From: Thermoplasmata archaeon
Lineage (GTDB): Archaea > Thermoplasmatota > Thermoplasmata > Thermoplasmatales > Thermoplasmataceae
Assembly (NCBI GenBank): GCA_021846395.1
Contig: JAJZXB010000010.1
Span: forward strand, 1 to 64,000
DNA: 64,000 bases
Reading direction: 5' to 3'
Both the position numbers and the translations under genes were made by a program. This document shows positions 6,798 through 21,234 of this stretch, one piece after another; positions within the stretch are counted from its first letter, which is position 1; each line of letters opens with the position of its first letter. The notes beneath the pieces were generated by a model. It ran no database searches. It saw only the letters and a list, made by a program, of their open reading frames with translations, and was not told the DNA's origin.

Positions 6798-7451
6798 ATG
6801 AATATTAACGAAATTTTTCTGAGTATACAGGGTGAGGGAGTATATACCGGAGAAAAAATGCTGTTCATCAGAACTGAATATTGCAATTTAAGATGTTCAT
6901 GGTGTGATACAAAGTATTCTTTCTATGAGGGGAAATATTTTACAGTTCCACAGATAATTGAAATTGTTAATGAATACCGTAATAAAAATAACTTTGACTG
7001 GATATGTATAACTGGGGGCGAACCATTATTGCAGAGAGATTTGAATGACCTTGTCGGGATTCTGAAAGATGGCTATAAAATTATACTGGAAACGTCAGGA
7101 AGCATTGATATTGGAAAATTCTTACCGCTTTACGGGAAAGTTTACAAGGATATCGATTTTAAACTGCCTTCATCAGGTATGTATAATAAATTCAATTATG
7201 CAAATTTAAATTATATTTCAGAACACGATTATATAAAATTCACGATAGATGATCAACATGATTTTGATATATTTTTAAATGAGTCAGAAAAAATAAATTA
7301 TTTAAATAACAGTATACAATTTATTATTCAACCTGTATGGGGAAGAAATTCAAAATGGCTTGCTAATGCATTTATCAACGCAAAAGTTAAAAACACTAAA
7401 TTTATGCTTCAGGAACACAAGTATATATTTGGCGATGTAAGAGGTATATAA
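6798..7451 (+). CDS. queE: 7-carboxy-7-deazaguanine synthase QueE (radical SAM)
   Basis: A 217-residue protein starting MNINEIFLSIQGEG, typical of QueE. The radical-SAM cluster motif C29-x3-C33-x2-C36 (CNLRCSWC) is followed by CITGGEPLLQ, the SAM-binding GGEP motif. QueE rearranges 6-carboxytetrahydropterin to 7-carboxy-7-deazaguanine on the way to preQ0, the precursor of archaeosine in archaeal tRNA. The next genes, folE (one base after the stop) and queD, supply the preceding steps, so the operon makes the pathway intermediate from GTP. QueC is not seen in this window. Confidence 0.93.
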   Translation: MNINEIFLSIQGEGVYTGEKMLFIRTEYCNLRCSWCDTKYSFYEGKYFTVPQIIEIVNEYRNKNNFDWICITGGEPLLQRDLNDLVGILKDGYKIILETSGSIDIGKFLPLYGKVYKDIDFKLPSSGMYNKFNYANLNYISEHDYIKFTIDDQHDFDIFLNESEKINYLNNSIQFIIQPVWGRNSKWLANAFINAKVKNTKFMLQEHKYIFGDVRGI

Positions 7452-7452
7452 A

Positions 7453-8031
7453 ATGAAACAGGAATATAATGAAGATGTATTGAAGGAAAGCATCAAAAAT
7501 TTGATTAATAATTTGCATGAACAGTTCGGATGGTTCAATGATGAGGAGTTAAAAAATACGCCGGGCAGATTGGAAAAATTTTATAAAGAATGGTATGGCA
7601 ATAAGAATTTTAACTTTACAAAATTTAAAATTCAGGGAAAGGAAAGCATGGTTATTTTAAAAAATATATCATTTTACTCTATGTGCTCACACCATTTATT
7701 GCCCATAGATGGAAAAATAAGCATTGCATATCTCCCTGAACATTCCGGATATATAGCTGGAGTTAGCAAACTTGTAAGAGCAGTAAATAAAATAGCGAAT
7801 AAACCACAGCTTCAGGAAAATTTGACGTCAGAAATTGTTGAATATTTATATGGAAATCTCAAACCTGTTTTTGTTATGGTAATTGTGAATGGGAAACATA
7901 TGTGCATGATGATGCGTGGGGTAAAACAGGAAAATGCAACAATGGTTACATCCGCTGTAAAATATTCAGAAAAGGTTAAAAATGAACTTGAATCATTGAA
8001 AAATGAAGCATTAAAAATGATGGATGAATAA
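7453..8031 (+). CDS. folE: GTP cyclohydrolase I (FolE type)
   Basis: A 192-residue protein. The zinc and active-site signature MCSHHLLP gives C78, H80 and H81; the third zinc ligand is C151 in HMCMMMRGV. KPQLQENLT matches the conserved NPQ(V/L)QERLT segment. It converts GTP to 7,8-dihydroneopterin triphosphate, the first step of the preQ0 pathway encoded by this operon. Most archaea use MptA (FolE2 type) instead, so a FolE-I enzyme is notable and suggests bacterial ancestry. It abuts queE, and queD starts just after its stop. Confidence 0.92.
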   Translation: MKQEYNEDVLKESIKNLINNLHEQFGWFNDEELKNTPGRLEKFYKEWYGNKNFNFTKFKIQGKESMVILKNISFYSMCSHHLLPIDGKISIAYLPEHSGYIAGVSKLVRAVNKIANKPQLQENLTSEIVEYLYGNLKPVFVMVIVNGKHMCMMMRGVKQENATMVTSAVKYSEKVKNELESLKNEALKMMDE

Positions 8032-8032
8032 T

Positions 8033-8506
8033 ATGTTTTCAATAGAAATACTTGGTAATGAAAAAAATCTTGCCTGGAGTTCGGGGCATTATGTTCCAGA
8101 CAACATAAAATGCAAAAGGCTCCATGGGCATGATTATTCCATTGACATAAATATATCAGGAATACCATTAAGGGAAAATGGTATGACATTGGATTTTACC
8201 ATCATAAAAGAAATAATAAGGCCTCTAATAGGGAAAATGGACCATAGATTTATTGTCCCTGAAAATGACTTGAGAGAGAATTCCAAAAATAATAATATCC
8301 TTGATGTGTATGTAAATGGAGAGTATAAAGCGTCAATGAAAAAGGAGGAAGTTTTTGTTTTTGAATATGAAGTTGCTTCTGCCGAATATATAGCAAAATA
8401 TTTTCATAAAAAAATTTCCGAAGAATTGAAAAAAGAGATTAATAATTTTTATTTAAAAATAAAGGTACACGAGGGTCTTGGAAACATTGCCATCTACAGT
8501 GAATGA
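8033..8506 (+). CDS. queD: 6-carboxy-5,6,7,8-tetrahydropterin synthase QueD
   Basis: A 157-residue PTPS-family protein. From the chosen start the zinc ligands are H19 (SSGHY) and H31/H33 (RLHGHDY), with C27 just before them as the catalytic cysteine typical of QueD. DFTIIKE matches the conserved D-F segment and VHEGLGN carries the C-terminal Glu. The ATG at 8033 follows the folE stop and has GGATGA about five bases ahead; an ATG at 8024 is also in frame. It turns dihydroneopterin triphosphate into the substrate of QueE. Confidence 0.92.
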   Translation: MFSIEILGNEKNLAWSSGHYVPDNIKCKRLHGHDYSIDINISGIPLRENGMTLDFTIIKEIIRPLIGKMDHRFIVPENDLRENSKNNNILDVYVNGEYKASMKKEEVFVFEYEVASAEYIAKYFHKKISEELKKEINNFYLKIKVHEGLGNIAIYSE

Positions 8507-8514
8507 AAATAAAA

Positions 8515-9468
8515 TTACAATAAATATTTTCCCATATTTTCCAAATTGAATTCAGAATAGTCTTCCAGCGTCACGAGATTTATTTTTTTTAATTCTATCT
8601 GTAAAGATGCTATAGCATTAAGATATTCCCTTGCCCTGATTTCCGGCAGAATAATATTTGCATAAACTTTTTCTCCATTTACCCAGAGAAATCTGAATAT
8701 TCTGGGGAATTTTAATTTATTTGACATTTTGGCGACATTTTTGTTAAGGTAAAATAACATTTCATTTTCTATATCGGTTACATACACACCATCATCCTTT
8801 GAAATAACTCTAATGCCCTCGCCGTTGTGTAAATCATCGTTGGAATAAATAATCATTTTAAACCTGCTTTCTGCTTCCGGAAAATTACTGGTTATCTGCC
8901 CTATTGAATTGTTATTATGTAAAATAATAGCAACCCTGTCTTCCTTAAATTCTTCATAAGGCATGCTGATAATTATGCTTTTCATTTTTATGTTAAAATT
9001 ATTCTCTAGCATTTTATTCACCGGTTTTATATCCAATTTCTCAATAAAATTATGTTTCATTAATTTTGTTGTAATGGCATCGGTAAACGCTTTTTGTAGC
9101 GAATGATGCATAAAACATTTTATTACAAAATACCCATCCTTCATATATTCCCCTGCTATAATGAGGCCTTCTATACTATCGAGATTGTTGATCAATTCAA
9201 TTATATTTTCCTCATACAATTTTTCTATGCCTCTGAAATAATCAATTCTTTCCTCAATATTAAATGCTGAAAATATTGGTTTATACGAATTTAAATCCAT
9301 ATCTCTTGGCAAGAACGCATTTAAAAACAGCTCACCCTCCTCCCTGTGTATATATAATGGTACTGTTTGGTCAAAATCCCTTATAATTTTTAATATCGCA
9401 GACTGTGCCTCCACATATATTTCAGCAGAAATGTCCATTTTTTTATTTAAGTCGTCAATATTCACCAT
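8515..9468 (-). CDS. Unknown protein, paralogue of the gene at 12610-13542
   Basis: A 317-residue protein that I do not recognise. It has no clear membrane segment or signal peptide. It resembles the 310-residue protein at 12610-13542 in length and in several aligned stretches: EENIIELINNL with SDNIYNLIHEI, YSNDDLHNGEG with FSNEKIQEGEN, and the last 60 residues. Both proteins look like two-part, alternating alpha/beta sequences without a visible helix-turn-helix. It is the last gene of a minus-strand run with a membrane glycosyltransferase and a RecA-like ATPase, 50 bases after the former, so a role linked to them is plausible but unproven. Confidence 0.7.
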   Translation of the reverse strand: MVNIDDLNKKMDISAEIYVEAQSAILKIIRDFDQTVPLYIHREEGELFLNAFLPRDMDLNSYKPIFSAFNIEERIDYFRGIEKLYEENIIELINNLDSIEGLIIAGEYMKDGYFVIKCFMHHSLQKAFTDAITTKLMKHNFIEKLDIKPVNKMLENNFNIKMKSIIISMPYEEFKEDRVAIILHNNNSIGQITSNFPEAESRFKMIIYSNDDLHNGEGIRVISKDDGVYVTDIENEMLFYLNKNVAKMSNKLKFPRIFRFLWVNGEKVYANIILPEIRAREYLNAIASLQIELKKINLVTLEDYSEFNLENMGKYLL

Positions 9469-9518
9469 GTATTATTATAAAGATATATTAATATTTTTCT
9501 TACATGTCTAGGTACAAT

Positions 9519-11051
9519 TTAACCTTCAAAATTTTTAAAAGCGGGTTCATCCATCGACGATTTTTTTGGCGTCCGATTCAGGAAAAAAATTGGTAAAAGC
9601 AGCATGAGCTGGAAAAGTGCCCAGAATACAGTTATATCATTGTATATTGAATGCCTGTATATCAGTATAGCTGAGGATATTATAAGAAGCGCCATAATTA
9701 AAAATTGCGGCCAGAATTTATGCCATGGCATTTTGCCACCGGTTCTGGCTGTCGTAAAAGGTTTCGTCTTCTTCCTCAAAACACTGATGGTCGTTGATAT
9801 GCTCAGTGGAAATATCAAAAGATTTGCAGCCATATTGTAAAATACAAATTTCAATGGAGCTTTCTTATCAATGTGCGATAAAACAAATGTTGTCATCAAT
9901 AATATGGTATAGGGCATCCATGCAAAAAAGTATAATGTAGGATTTATTGTCAAAACCTTAATTCCAAGTATGTCCATTATAGGGGCTAATAGAAAAATTA
10001 AATAAAACCAGCCAAAGGTGTACCATGTTCCAGTAGCAAACCAGTCAAGTCTCTCCTTAAATGTATATTTTTTATTGAATATTATTTCTTTGAATATCCT
10101 TGGCATCAGTGATAAAGATCCAGCCATCCACCGCCATTGCTGGTTTATATACCCTTCCATCGTTACAGGTGCCCTTCCAAAAACAAGTTTTTTATTGTAA
10201 TACAATCCACGCCATCCCTTTCCAATTAAATTTACTGATGTGGTAATATCCTCAACAAGGCTTGACTCATCAAAATAATTAACAGATTTTAAAGCCTCCA
10301 ATCTGTAAATTACATTGCTTCCGCATGAAAATAAGGTTCCTGTTACGCTCTTTCCCTCAGTAAGGATCTCATAAAATATAAACTGCTGTGCCTGTGCAAT
10401 TTCAGCAAGAACGTTGCTGTCTGTATTCGTATATATTTGTGGTACCTGGACAAAACCAACATCAGGATTCTTATCAAGCATTGATACTGTCTCCCTTATG
10501 AAATCTGGCGAAGGGGTCTGATCTATATCTATAACAGAAACAAAATCAACATCTAATGTTTTTAAAATATCGTTTAAAGCACCTGCTTTATAGCCTCTTC
10601 TGTTTATTCTATGTATATATTTCATGCCTATCCTGTTGCACAGGTCAATGATATACGAGGAATCACCTTTTGTAGAATCGTCAAGAACATAAACTTCGGC
10701 TATGTTTCCAACGTTTGAATGTATTGCAATAAGGTTTGTTTTTACCATATCTGGATCTTCATTGTATATTGGAACAAGAATAGCTACCTTATTCCTTAAG
10801 AGTATATTATATGAAGAATCGATTGTATTCTTATATTTATACTGGCTTCTTCTAAATGATAAAAAATAGCTTATGCTCTGTATTCCAAAGAATACAGTTG
10901 CAAACCAGAACCAGAAGGTAAAAAAATAATCAAGAAGTGTTCCATTCTTTAAAACAATTATAGAATACAATGAAGATATGAGACCTATACCTATAAAAAT
11001 GAGGGAAAGAATACTCATAATATTTACGGTTATACGTAATATTTTTTTCAT
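9519..11051 (-). CDS. Membrane-embedded family 2 glycosyltransferase, cellulose-synthase-like
   Basis: A 510-residue protein with two N-terminal membrane segments (about 5-35 and 40-66), a cytoplasmic GT2 domain (about 88-320) and several C-terminal membrane segments. The processive GT signature is complete: LDDS at 123-126, DID at 175-177, VED at 266-268 and QQWRW at 304-308. Enzymes of this kind polymerise a beta-linked polysaccharide and thread it through the membrane. A ribosome binding site (AAGGTAA) lies in the short gap after the RecA-like ATPase gene upstream, so the two are co-transcribed. The polymer is unknown. No PilZ domain is visible. Confidence 0.88.
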   Translation of the reverse strand: MKKILRITVNIMSILSLIFIGIGLISSLYSIIVLKNGTLLDYFFTFWFWFATVFFGIQSISYFLSFRRSQYKYKNTIDSSYNILLRNKVAILVPIYNEDPDMVKTNLIAIHSNVGNIAEVYVLDDSTKGDSSYIIDLCNRIGMKYIHRINRRGYKAGALNDILKTLDVDFVSVIDIDQTPSPDFIRETVSMLDKNPDVGFVQVPQIYTNTDSNVLAEIAQAQQFIFYEILTEGKSVTGTLFSCGSNVIYRLEALKSVNYFDESSLVEDITTSVNLIGKGWRGLYYNKKLVFGRAPVTMEGYINQQWRWMAGSLSLMPRIFKEIIFNKKYTFKERLDWFATGTWYTFGWFYLIFLLAPIMDILGIKVLTINPTLYFFAWMPYTILLMTTFVLSHIDKKAPLKFVFYNMAANLLIFPLSISTTISVLRKKTKPFTTARTGGKMPWHKFWPQFLIMALLIISSAILIYRHSIYNDITVFWALFQLMLLLPIFFLNRTPKKSSMDEPAFKNFEG

Positions 11052-11055
11052 AAAA

Positions 11056-12162
11056 TTACCTTATATTTTTAAAAATGTCATTATTATCCAGTGATGGTTT
11101 ATCATCAGTGTTATTATTGACATCTTTAATAATAATTATTCCGTTTTGTGTGATTTTGAAATTTAAAGGAGCGGAATTAAAAATGGAACCTCTCATCTTT
11201 ACTATTTCCATAGATCTTAATTGTTTTTGATCAACCCTTTTATAATCCAGTTTTATAATTCCTGTTACATAATATTCCTCTATTCCGAATATGCTCAGAT
11301 CCGAACTTCGTATGCCGGATGTTATTATCGTAATGACATTTTTCATTGCCAGACTGTTTAAAAAAATATTTATGTAATCATCGTCAGGAATCAAAAGAAG
11401 AGTAATAGGATCTATAACAACTCGTTTTATATCTTTCTGTATTATTATCTTTTTTAATTCATTTACAACCTTTGTAATAAATTTCCTGAAATCTGTTTTA
11501 CCGCTTGATACATCTGCTTTCATTGCCCTAATCTGGTCCGATATTTCCATAATTTCTATCATTTTATTTTCATATGCTTCAGCAAAGCCAATATCCATTG
11601 TTCTAATATTATCAAGAAACTGATCTGGAAAGGTATCAGTAAGTATCATCATGCCCTTTTCATTATATTTTGCCCCGTTAGCCAAAAAAATGCTGGACAG
11701 AGTTGTTTTACCCACACCGGTTTTACCGGATAACAGATAAACGTATCCTGGTCTCAGACCGCCAGATAATTTGGAATCAATTTCAGGTATCCCAAAATGG
11801 CCTTTCCCGGTATTAACATTTTCGTAATTTTTTAAATCAGCGATTTTAATTTGAAATGCATTGCATATGTTAACTTCATTATCATTCAATTCTCTATTTG
11901 AAATTAATATTTTTTTATCTATACGTGAATCCATACATTGTGCGTTGAATATTATTAAGTCATTAATGGATGACACATCCTTGGTTATTTTTATTACTAT
12001 TAAAACTTCTTTGTATGTAACTATATCACTAAAATTATACTCATTTCCAGAAATGCCAGTTATTTTATAATTTTTATAGAAATGCATGTTATGTATATCA
12101 AGAGAGAAAGAGTGTGAAACAACACGCAAAATAGTATCAGTATCTATGTCATCTTCTGTCAA
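11056..12162 (-). CDS. RecA/KaiC-superfamily ATPase with an extra N-terminal domain
   Basis: A 368-residue protein. A KaiC-like core begins around residue 122 (FGIPEIDSKLSGGL), with Walker A GKTGVGKTT at 146-154 and a Walker B strand RVVIDPITLLLI near 240. The first 110 residues are a separate alpha/beta domain whose pattern (SGNEYNFSD, a strand with VIKI, then KKILIS) recalls inactive PD-(D/E)XK-like domains; this is a fold guess. The start is a TTG at 12162, because no ATG or GTG is available before conserved sequence. It lies directly upstream of the glycosyltransferase, so it may regulate or localise polysaccharide synthesis. KaiC-like proteins often act as signalling ATPases. Confidence 0.75.
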   Translation of the reverse strand: MTEDDIDTDTILRVVSHSFSLDIHNMHFYKNYKITGISGNEYNFSDIVTYKEVLIVIKITKDVSSINDLIIFNAQCMDSRIDKKILISNRELNDNEVNICNAFQIKIADLKNYENVNTGKGHFGIPEIDSKLSGGLRPGYVYLLSGKTGVGKTTLSSIFLANGAKYNEKGMMILTDTFPDQFLDNIRTMDIGFAEAYENKMIEIMEISDQIRAMKADVSSGKTDFRKFITKVVNELKKIIIQKDIKRVVIDPITLLLIPDDDYINIFLNSLAMKNVITIITSGIRSSDLSIFGIEEYYVTGIIKLDYKRVDQKQLRSMEIVKMRGSIFNSAPLNFKITQNGIIIIKDVNNNTDDKPSLDNNDIFKNIR

Positions 12163-12251
12163 AGCGAGAGTGTATTTTTTAAATGTATATAATTATTCCC
12201 ATTATATATAAATCATTTACGATTACATCTATTATGAGCGTTAAGGGTTAA

Positions 12252-12341
12252 TTACAGTGAGTACTGCCCACATCCCCTATTTTCCTCAATAAGGCAGTAA
12301 TAAGTTTTTCCATTCTTTTTTGCTACCTTTTTCAGTTTCAA
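12252..12341 (-). pseudogene. Possible remnant of a transposase N-terminus (IS1634/IS4-like)
   Basis: The 447-base gap between the ATPase gene and the next gene holds no full gene. Within it a short minus-strand frame of 29 codons reads LKLKKVAKKNGKTYYCLIEE and a few more residues before a stop. This resembles the start of IS1634-type transposases, which begin with a similar KNGK-x-YYYLVE segment. The frame breaks immediately afterwards, so only a scar would be left. The likeness is short and from memory. The rest of the gap is AT-rich and shows nothing else I can name. Confidence 0.35.
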
Positions 12342-12609
12342 TGTTATGTACTGATTTTATATCCCAAATATAAATCTTTCCATAAACACGAATCTTACTA
12401 TATTCAAAATAGAATAAGTTCCAAAAAAACCTAACTCCAAATGGATACCATAGGATTGCACATTATGATTTATTAAAAATATTTTATTTATATTTACATA
12501 AACTTCATTACATTATGTGAATGTTTTGCCAATATTGTAATAACAGTACAGTTATAAATATTTCTAAGTTTTATAAAATTCAAAAATATAAATTTAGCTA
12601 AAAACAATA

Positions 12610-13542
12610 TTAATTAAGCAGAGAGGGATCATAATCAGAACATGTTTTTATTGTTATAATGTTTTTACCATTATTTTCAATTGCCTCTGAAATTAATATT
12701 TTAATATATTCCATTATTCTGTATGATGAAATTATAAATGTTAAGTGGATAGAGTTGTCCTTAATTGATATGTAGAAATTTCTGAATATGCCATGCTCAT
12801 TTGTCCTTTTTCTAACTCCCGAAAGAGGAGTGAGATTTAAATGTGATTCATAAATATTATTTTTGTCGGATATGCATTTTAAATTTTCCCCCTCCTGAAT
12901 TTTTTCATTTGAGAATATAAGCACATCAAAATAATCATCGTCCCCATACAAACCCACGGCCTCAGCAATAGAGTCCGTTTTTTCCAGCATTTTTTCAGTA
13001 TATGTCATGTTATATCTATCTAATGGAATGGTATACTTTAATACAGATAGGGGTATTTTTTTATTTTTATTTAACAAAAATTTATCTATTCCCGTTTCAC
13101 TTTTAGTGATCAGGAGATCATCAATAAAATTTGGTATGGTGATATATCTATTGATTATTTCAGATACATTTGATTTATAATCACTGTTGTATCTTAATCT
13201 TATAATAAACTTCCCCATTTCGATTGTTGTTTCCAATAAAGCAACACTGGGAATATTGCCTATTTCATGAATTAAATTATATATATTATCTGAAATTAAT
13301 TTTGTTATCATGAAATACTCCTCCTTTTCAATGGCATTAAAATAGTTAGCAATTAAATCTTCAACGCCCTTATTATTTTTTTTGGATATAAAAATCCGGA
13401 AATAATGGTTATCGGGATCACTTCCTAAAAAAACAGACATAGTAACATTGTGAAGTTTTGACCATCTGAATATGTCTTCATAACTATTGATGGCAATTTT
13501 AACTTCCATATCAAGTTTCCTGCTAGCTTCAATTATATTCAT
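12610..13542 (-). CDS. Unknown protein, paralogue of the gene at 8515-9468
   Basis: A 310-residue protein that I do not recognise, with no membrane segments. It shares layout and several short stretches with the 317-residue protein at 8515-9468, including the centre (YNLIHEIGN, then a beta-rich part) and the C-terminal third (FRNFYISIKDNSIHLTFII against FRFLWVNGEKVYANIIL). The two copies bracket the glycosyltransferase and RecA-like ATPase genes and all read the same way, which suggests duplication within one functional locus. The gap to the ATPase gene downstream is 447 bases and may hold its own promoter. No catalytic motif was seen. Confidence 0.7.
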   Translation of the reverse strand: MNIIEASRKLDMEVKIAINSYEDIFRWSKLHNVTMSVFLGSDPDNHYFRIFISKKNNKGVEDLIANYFNAIEKEEYFMITKLISDNIYNLIHEIGNIPSVALLETTIEMGKFIIRLRYNSDYKSNVSEIINRYITIPNFIDDLLITKSETGIDKFLLNKNKKIPLSVLKYTIPLDRYNMTYTEKMLEKTDSIAEAVGLYGDDDYFDVLIFSNEKIQEGENLKCISDKNNIYESHLNLTPLSGVRKRTNEHGIFRNFYISIKDNSIHLTFIISSYRIMEYIKILISEAIENNGKNIITIKTCSDYDPSLLN

Positions 13543-19490: not shown

Positions 19491-20003
19491 ATGAATGTAA
19501 TAGTTATGGCTGGTGGACGTGGAAGCAGAATAAGCAATAGAAAAAAAATGCTTTTAAAAATAAAAAATAAGACACTGATTGAAAGGTCACTTGATATCAT
19601 CCATAACCTGAAAATGAATGTTTACATTTGCATAAGCAATAATACTGACTTTCTTCTAAAAGTACTGCATGATTACAGTATTATAAACGGTTCGGGAGAT
19701 TATATTACTGACCTTAAAGCATCCCTGGATACTGTTGGTTTGCCTGCCATTATTATGCCTGCGGATATTGTATATTCTGGAAATATTATAGAAGAATTTA
19801 TAATTTCAGCAAGTAAGATACATGATGGAATTATAAATTTAAAAATCAATGGCCAATTATCAGGTATATCAATATTTTATGAAAAACCCTTGAATAAAAT
19901 AATTAAATTTAAAGATATATCAATATTTTCTGAATCTTTTTTCAATATAAACTATCCAGAAGATTACAACAATGCCGTGAACTACTTCACGTTAAAACCG
20001 TGA
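19491..20003 (+). CDS. CobY-like nucleotidyltransferase, C-terminus supplied by an IS element
   Basis: A 170-residue protein beginning MNVIVMAGGRGSRISNRKKMLLKI, the NTP-transferase signature of the CobY/MobA group. LPAIIMPADIVY carries the metal-binding acidic motif region. The best guess is GTP:adenosylcobinamide-phosphate guanylyltransferase (CobY), in line with cobalamin genes elsewhere in the window; a MobA-like role is the main alternative. Codon 163 begins exactly at the end of the IS200/IS605 element (19977), so the last eight residues and the stop are IS DNA. Joining the flanks without the IS also gives eight residues (VNFYSHRL) and a stop, so the gene was hit at its very end and is probably still functional. 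Confidence 0.7.
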   Translation: MNVIVMAGGRGSRISNRKKMLLKIKNKTLIERSLDIIHNLKMNVYICISNNTDFLLKVLHDYSIINGSGDYITDLKASLDTVGLPAIIMPADIVYSGNIIEEFIISASKIHDGIINLKINGQLSGISIFYEKPLNKIIKFKDISIFSESFFNINYPEDYNNAVNYFTLKP

Positions 20004-21234
20004 AGCTTCCTATATCAACCACAAAGCTTGCCTCCACGTTTGGAATACTGTTCAGGTATTCCATCATGTAGGTATAGGCTTTCATGTCCATAGGCGTAAA
20101 TTTCCTACGTTCCGTAGGTACCATATATTCTAATATATTTATTGATGCATTTAGATCCCGATCAATAGAGATATTGCATGATCCACAGTTGAATGTTCGT
20201 TCTTTCAAAGGCATCTTCTGCCTGTGATTGCATTTAGAGCATACCTGTGATGTGGGTGTATATCTTGGAACAACCTTAGGAGTACGTGATTTTCTCTTTA
20301 AATCATCCATTATTCCTCCTATTGCTGATCCTTGAATCTTTCTTCCCCACAATCTCATCCATCCTTTTATGGGATCATTCTGGAATGCAATTGTCTCAAA
20401 ACTATTTGTTATAATATTAACTATCTTATTTCTAGCATCCTTCTTCTTCTGTGTTATATTATTATACTCTTTATTTAATTTATTCAGTGTTTTATACCAG
20501 TTCTTCCCATGCTGTTTTCTACGTGATAGTTCTTTATGAAGTTTTATAGCCTTCCCTGTTAGTGGTATATCTTCATTAATGATTATTCCATTTGATAGTG
20601 TTAATGAACTTTTAATACCGAAATCAATACCAATTCCATTATCAGAATGTGTTATATCTTTTATTCCAGTAAATGTTGATATATGGATAAAATAATCCCC
20701 ATTTCTGGATTCAAGTGTTGCACTGGCTATATCAGCATCCTTTGGTATCTGTTCAATACCGGAAACCTTTAACTTGCCTATCCTCTGTATCTTGATATAA
20801 TTCCCTGAAATATTATATGTATTTTTATATTGCTTCAAAGGTATTGAGTATATCCTCTTTTTGAAATGAAGTTTTCCAATCTTATTACCCTTCTTTTTTA
20901 AATTTGAAAGACCCCTTATGCTATCCTTAGTTTTATCAATAATCTCCTGTTTCATCTGTGATGATAATAACAATATATCTCTATCTTCATAATGGTCCTT
21001 TACCTTTATCTTAACTTTATTAATCCTGTAATCCTGATTATAAATATCATCTTCCGATAAGATATAATTATAAAACCACTTTGCCTCAAGAAAGATACGA
21101 TTAAGATTCTTTACCCTTGTTCTGCCCAGATGTGATATATCTATTTTCAGTTCATAGGTTCTGCATGTCTGTGATTTCCTTCGTTTCTTTGTCTCCGATA
21201 TGGTCTTTCTGATTGCATCATTCTTCTCAGACAT
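19987..21234 (-). CDS. tnpB: TnpB (IS605 OrfB) RNA-guided nuclease-like protein
   Basis: A 415-residue protein. RuvC-I is GIDFGIKSSLTLSNG with D204. The zinc ribbon is CSKC at 332-335 and CGSC at 350-353. RuvC-III is SIDRDLNASINI with D358 and D360. At RuvC-II, where TnpB normally has a V-V-E-D-type motif, this protein reads IAFQNDPIKG with Gln at 285 followed by Asn and Asp. TnpB nicks or cuts DNA under guidance of an RNA made from the element's right end. The stop codon lies inside the right-end hairpin. It overlaps tnpA by 8 bases. Confidence 0.92.
   Translation of the reverse strand: MSEKNDAIRKTISETKKRRKSQTCRTYELKIDISHLGRTRVKNLNRIFLEAKWFYNYILSEDDIYNQDYRINKVKIKVKDHYEDRDILLLSSQMKQEIIDKTKDSIRGLSNLKKKGNKIGKLHFKKRIYSIPLKQYKNTYNISGNYIKIQRIGKLKVSGIEQIPKDADIASATLESRNGDYFIHISTFTGIKDITHSDNGIGIDFGIKSSLTLSNGIIINEDIPLTGKAIKLHKELSRRKQHGKNWYKTLNKLNKEYNNITQKKKDARNKIVNIITNSFETIAFQNDPIKGWMRLWGRKIQGSAIGGIMDDLKRKSRTPKVVPRYTPTSQVCSKCNHRQKMPLKERTFNCGSCNISIDRDLNASINILEYMVPTERRKFTPMDMKAYTYMMEYLNSIPNVEASFVVDIGSFTVLT

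Follow-up and report, generated by a model that had tools for sequence, protein, structure and literature searches.

Archaeal KaiC-like proteins were reportedly proposed as signal-transduction hubs by Makarova, Galperin and Koonin in 2017. The bacterial cellulose synthase system combines the synthase BcsA with BcsQ, a P-loop ATPase whose gene shares 4 bases with bcsA in E. coli K-12, and with the regulator BcsE, whose N-terminal domain, RecA-like by prediction, was superposed on KaiC (PMC7439463). The Methanobacteriaceae possess fusions of a receiver (REC) domain with a BcsA-like synthase, and the paper on them also cites the archaeal KaiC signal-hub concept (PMC5847659). Here we describe a four-gene locus at positions 8515-13542 of a 64,000-nucleotide stretch (the window) of a Thermoplasmata archaeon (GenBank assembly GCA_021846395.1, contig JAJZXB010000010.1), whose genome falls into the genus of Acidiplasma aeolicum VT. 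It encodes a BcsA-type processive family 2 glycosyltransferase (GT2, or GT), a KaiC ATPase with an N-terminal domain of restriction endonuclease (REase) fold, and two flanking proteins of the Ta1207 family. The locus is a real, conserved and co-evolving module, in which archaeal KaiC-based regulation is probably applied to a BcsA-type synthase, with a known but functionally orphan Ta1207 family.

Similar to the bacterial system, the locus has a BcsA-type synthase with an ATPase gene close to the synthase gene, and the predicted degenerate RecA/KaiC-like domain of BcsE parallels in fold the partner found here. However, the PilZ domain is absent, the partner is a RecA-type KaiC instead of the SIMIBI ATPase BcsQ, and Ta1207 has no counterpart in that system. 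The single-domain KaiC with a lineage-specific fused domain and partners is also typical of the archaeal hubs, for which inactivated variants (iKaiC) are known, but in this case a single KaiC lineage is devoted to the BcsA-like synthase across several Thermoplasmata families. In the Methanobacteriaceae an archaeal BcsA-like synthase likewise stands under a non-PilZ signalling domain, which is a fused receiver domain there and a separate KaiC protein here. No description of a pairing of KaiC with a polysaccharide synthase was found in the literature searched, which did not cover the KaiC-hub study (Makarova, Galperin and Koonin 2017), where it may be mentioned.

Relatives of the synthase were collected at E ≤ 1e-30 from 300 Thermoplasmata genomes. 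A KaiC-family gene was found upstream on the same strand in all 22 relatives scoring at least 235 bits. In 21 of them it is the next gene, in most cases with an overlap or at a distance of up to 66 bases, and G175 has its KaiC gene about 1 kb upstream; the partner KaiC of the second GT of G002 is cut in its C-terminal part by the contig end. In L147, from another collection, the KaiC-GT gap measures 225 bases by the called start. With within-genome paralogs counted among the 22 pairs, the KaiC and GT trees are congruent (r = 0.96, permutation p = 0.0002). Three architectures of the partner were found, namely a plain REase-KaiC protein; a zinc ribbon with a REase-like region and a KaiC domain without Walker A, whose gene overlaps that of the GT by 4 bases (L134, L135); and a zinc-ribbon-REase-KaiC protein with a transmembrane (TM) anchor (L198, L199). 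The L134/L135 partners (L134:7814-9223, L135:7396-8820) align with the window KaiC family with an hhalign E of 4e-20 over 306 columns; these pseudo-ATPases carry an N-terminal CxxC pair, have ETFSSGNT in place of GKTGVGKT, and belong to a second BcsA-like GT. Since such pairs have lost Walker A, part of the KaiC role would be structural. The pairing is claimed for the 22 relatives only, because the coupled open reading frames (ORFs) of several weaker GTs show no detectable relation to KaiC; two others (L141, L202) are coupled to a P-loop ATPase. For the ORFs coupled to weaker GT2s (L203-L205, L138/L207/L209/L184) and for the L137 partner, homology to KaiC was rejected, as the hhalign E values of 0.01-0.8 were inseparable from those of 80 controls. 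The L137 partner (L137:10782-13319) is an 845-aa protein of an Acidiplasma-group metagenome-assembled genome (MAG), without a Pfam match, whose gene also overlaps a second BcsA-like GT gene by 4 bases.

A similar picture might arise by chance, or by neutral retention of gene order among small genomes that are related, and the queuosine/archaeosine genes next to the cluster are indeed conserved within Acidiplasma as well. The recurrence of the pairing in neighbourhoods of unrelated genes already contradicts this explanation: the core pairing persists among different neighbours in the Ferroplasma-group genomes, L125 and L124, and KaiC is present at every one of the 22 GT loci. We consider it very improbable.

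The features of the locus are as follows.

8515-9468, minus strand: Ta1207-family protein A, 317 aa, last gene of the cluster (PF19020, 105.4 bits)
9519-11051, minus strand: BcsA-type processive GT2 synthase, 510 aa, without PilZ (PF13632, 82 bits)
11056-12162, minus strand: REase-fold KaiC ATPase, 368 aa, TTG start (PF06745, 145 bits)
11809-12162, minus strand: degenerate PD-(D/E)XK-fold N-terminal domain of the KaiC protein, residues 1-118 (AlphaFold2 and Foldseek)
12163-12609, no strand: spacer of 447 bp with short ORF remnants and dispersed-repeat sequence
about 12201-12212, within the spacer: TATA-like stretch TTTATATATAAT ahead of the KaiC gene
12610-13542, minus strand: Ta1207-family protein B, 310 aa, first gene of the cluster (PF19020, 138.6 bits)

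The positions of the four minus-strand ORFs agree exactly with a preliminary description of this DNA, as do the lengths of the outer two, and the separation of synthase and ATPase by 4 bases (11052-11055) was confirmed. Its assignment of the inner pair to a GT2 synthase with all catalytic motifs and a KaiC-like ATPase agrees with the Pfam matches and the motifs.

The synthase carries the catalytic motifs DD (124), DID (175), FSCGSN (241), VED (266) and QQWRW (304). It has about 6 hydrophobic TM segments, and the sequence ends after the last one; the Pfam scan detected no PilZ domain. The closest solved protein is BcsA (PDB 4HG6, E 9e-31). Against the NCBIfam equivalog TIGR03030 (CelA, cellulose synthase) the synthase scores 170.3 bits, under the cut-off of 699, and against PgaC 84 bits. 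As the equivalog cut-off is missed, the sequence assigns no product, and a cellulose-like beta-glucan is no more than the best guess from it. In addition, mutually related proteins resembling right-handed beta-helices adjoin the KaiC-GT pair in four related loci, mostly convergent with the GT gene (L147:12822-13745, L124:8363-9358, L241:10950-11870 and L195:2826-3731). The beta-helix fold is common among proteins that act on polysaccharides. It is possible that these neighbours are polysaccharide-modifying enzymes, and their position beside the GT fits a polysaccharide product.

The KaiC protein has one ATPase domain, compared with two in tandem in circadian KaiC, whose partners are KaiA and KaiB. 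Both the Walker A motif GKTGVGKTT at residue 146 and the Walker B motif VVIDP at residue 248 are intact. The AlphaFold2 model of the N-terminal domain (pLDDT 88) gave PDB 1Y88 as its best Foldseek match (E 4.5e-5, TMq 0.61), followed by the nucleases Bax1 and Can2. The acidic residue of the (D/E)xK motif is absent in all aligned homologs, and the lysine is retained in some only. Because of this loss, the domain probably serves for binding rather than for cleavage. KaiC and Ta1207 might form a transcription- or DNA-related regulatory unit, with the REase-fold domain bound to nucleic acid and the GT merely a regulated target gene without contact. Many nucleic-acid proteins have REase-like or RecA-like folds, some partner KaiCs carry zinc ribbons, and other KaiC copies adjoin unrelated genes. 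However, the mostly overlapping or nearly overlapping KaiC-GT spacing in several families and the congruent trees, paralogs included, point to a physical partnership, and the TM-anchored version of KaiC also speaks against such a unit. We consider a regulator acting on DNA improbable.

KaiC proteins with the same REase-fold N-terminus were also observed in two Micrarchaeota MAGs (L159, L161), with 33-34% identity to the window protein. Transfer of this KaiC between Thermoplasmatales and their DPANN associates is possible. No Ta1207 was found in these two genomes, and scanning of viral contigs with the KaiC protein gave one weak match.

Proteins A and B had been described as resembling each other and fitting no family. 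The resemblance holds, while the second statement does not: in the Pfam scan both belong to PF19020 (Ta1207), far above the curated cut-off of 26.3 bits, and are thus not of different folds. They share 21% identity over nearly the full length (BLASTP E = 3e-15), indicating paralogy rather than chance. The AlphaFold2 model of protein B (pLDDT 92, pTM 0.89) matched PDB 5M86 best in Foldseek, over the whole chain, with an E of 5e-15 and TM-scores of 0.71/0.69, and the next matches were not significant. This crystal structure of Thermoplasma acidophilum Ta1207 is the single solved member of PF19020, an isolated structure. Sequence searches of the PDB with the Ta1207 proteins gave no match, and fold comparison alone reached 5M86, which is reportedly a ring-shaped pentamer. 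No residue is invariant across 29 Ta1207 sequences, which argues against catalysis and for a role in binding or scaffolding. An internal duplication was unsupported (hhalign E 0.005 but probability 7%), and a Bat-like regulatory domain, considered from the sequence pattern, had no Pfam support. At L229:4910-6874, a long frame of about 654 aa contains a Ta1207 domain and is possibly a tandem fusion; long frames were also observed at G233:C8 and G304:C29.

Ta1207 is present in 50 of the 300 Thermoplasmata genomes, all within two families (f1, f3). The window genome, its congeners and G202 each have just two Ta1207 genes, both at this locus, and G020 has its single copy there. By simple arithmetic, the chance of both copies flanking one operon is below 1e-5 per genome (2 copies among ~1,660 genes), where the genomes are related and the trials therefore not independent. 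In the literature searched, neither the name Ta1207 nor any account tying the family to KaiC and a synthase turned up.

Conservation of the four-gene order in several genera, named in the preliminary description as support for a system, is indeed observed. The window, its congeners L121 and L122 and two genomes of the Ferroplasma-group genus (L239, L240) have the full order Ta1207-KaiC-GT-Ta1207. Reduced forms are KaiC-GT-Ta1207 in Ferroplasma acidarmanus Fer1 (L148), L123 and L145, and Ta1207-KaiC-GT in L125, L149 and L241. L193 has two Ta1207 genes followed by KaiC-GT, and L124 has KaiC-GT with Ta1207 genes nearby. Partial order extends to at least three lineages beyond the Acidiplasma-group and Ferroplasma-group genera, and a scattering of the four genes among the relatives was not found. 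Other KaiC-GT pairs lack Ta1207 (L134, L135), and a second family keeps KaiC-Ta1207 without the GT; therefore, Ta1207 is tied to KaiC and not to the synthase. In the family of I-plasma, the KaiC-Ta1207 module adjoins ORFs of about 860 aa and 1000-2400 aa (L154, L155, L156, L153, L167), of which one 865-aa member has a weak Ig_3 match; these may be surface proteins.

The Ta1207 proteins might instead form a structural scaffold within the synthase machinery, for example a ring below the membrane pore, with KaiC as a BcsQ- or ArlH-like assembly ATPase, and the module would then build and localise the synthase and not regulate it. The strict KaiC-GT linkage with its mostly short or overlapping spacing, the absence of catalytic residues in Ta1207 and the membrane-anchored KaiC of L199 are consistent with such a scaffold, as are the degenerate KaiC versions, which stay paired and suggest that ATP hydrolysis is not always needed. 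Against it stand the KaiC-Ta1207 pairs without a GT in nine second-family genomes and, conversely, the KaiC-GT pairs without Ta1207 in L134 and L135. We regard a scaffold as rather unlikely, though less so than the regulator acting on DNA.

Since KaiC-GT is widespread and KaiC-Ta1207 occurs with and without the GT, KaiC appears as the hub shared by both, with the GT as output and with Ta1207 as a likely adaptor or input. We therefore favour, with some reserve, a regulated polysaccharide-synthase module in which KaiC regulates or assembles the synthase at the membrane and the Ta1207 proteins are its non-enzymatic input or adaptor subunits. The GT2 protein would be a membrane synthase that most likely polymerises and extrudes a beta-linked surface polysaccharide. 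It lacks the PilZ domain that senses cyclic di-GMP (c-di-GMP). KaiC, with its probably inactive REase-fold domain, most likely forms oligomers located at the cytoplasmic side of the synthase. KaiC would switch or assemble the synthase according to its nucleotide state, and the two Ta1207 paralogs would act on KaiC as non-enzymatic sensors or adaptors of a signal. The preliminary proposal of a regulated exopolysaccharide or surface-glycan system is partly supported, and well supported for the KaiC-synthase pair.

Several observations weigh against this regulated module. In the second family, which includes I-plasma, a divergent Ta1207 pair lies directly upstream of KaiC without a GT in all nine genomes with this KaiC type, and in other genera most Ta1207 copies are not near KaiC, indicating wider roles of the family. 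The two glutamates that KaiC uses for catalysis are substituted by Asp-Thr (TDT stands opposite FEE in the alignment with KaiC), so that switching by nucleotides may be weak or even missing. At copy b of the MAG WH1.bin9 the KaiC tree conflicts with the GT tree, one visible exchange. Comparison of the BcsE N-terminal domain with these KaiC proteins gave an hhalign E of 0.059, within the range of random controls; as no sequence homology was detected, the parallel is one of fold only, in the sense of "works like" and not of "is". In addition, the observations extend to gene content, folds, conserved linkage and congruent trees, and from these we infer co-transcription, physical contact, regulation, the signal and the polymer.

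More broadly, we tentatively propose that Thermoplasmata use a c-di-GMP-independent, KaiC-based control, with one dedicated, co-evolving KaiC, either active or pseudo-ATPase, for each synthase and with Ta1207 as a lineage-specific input layer. In archaea this would correspond to the RecA-like BcsE module of bacterial cellulose synthase; this generalisation is less secure than the regulated module itself. The arrangement kept in related species suggests that acid-loving archaea may control the production of surface sugars with KaiC proteins. Wall-less acidophiles such as Ferroplasma form biofilms on pyrite that contain extracellular polymeric substances (PMC4408177). The module bears on how archaea with PilZ-less synthases control exopolysaccharide synthesis, as the KaiC paired with each synthase is a concrete candidate partner for this control. 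The orphan Ta1207 family, with a structure and no assigned function, gains its first functional context.

A distance of 447 bp separates the first Ta1207 gene (B) from the KaiC gene, so that the cluster is not a single operon without gaps. The Ta1207-KaiC spacer is shorter in the two congeners, with 194 bp and 71 bp. A portion of 117 bp of the window spacer is 76% identical to a second site in the window genome, and the spacer is probably the remnant of an insertion element that widened the gap. Elsewhere in the window, a TnpB-like ORF with CxxC pairs is located at 19987-21234, with no obvious TnpA alongside. Directly adjoining the locus, a cluster of QueE-, GTP cyclohydrolase- and QueD-like genes (6798-8506; preQ0/archaeosine, by sequence) is found, and both congeners have the same neighbours.

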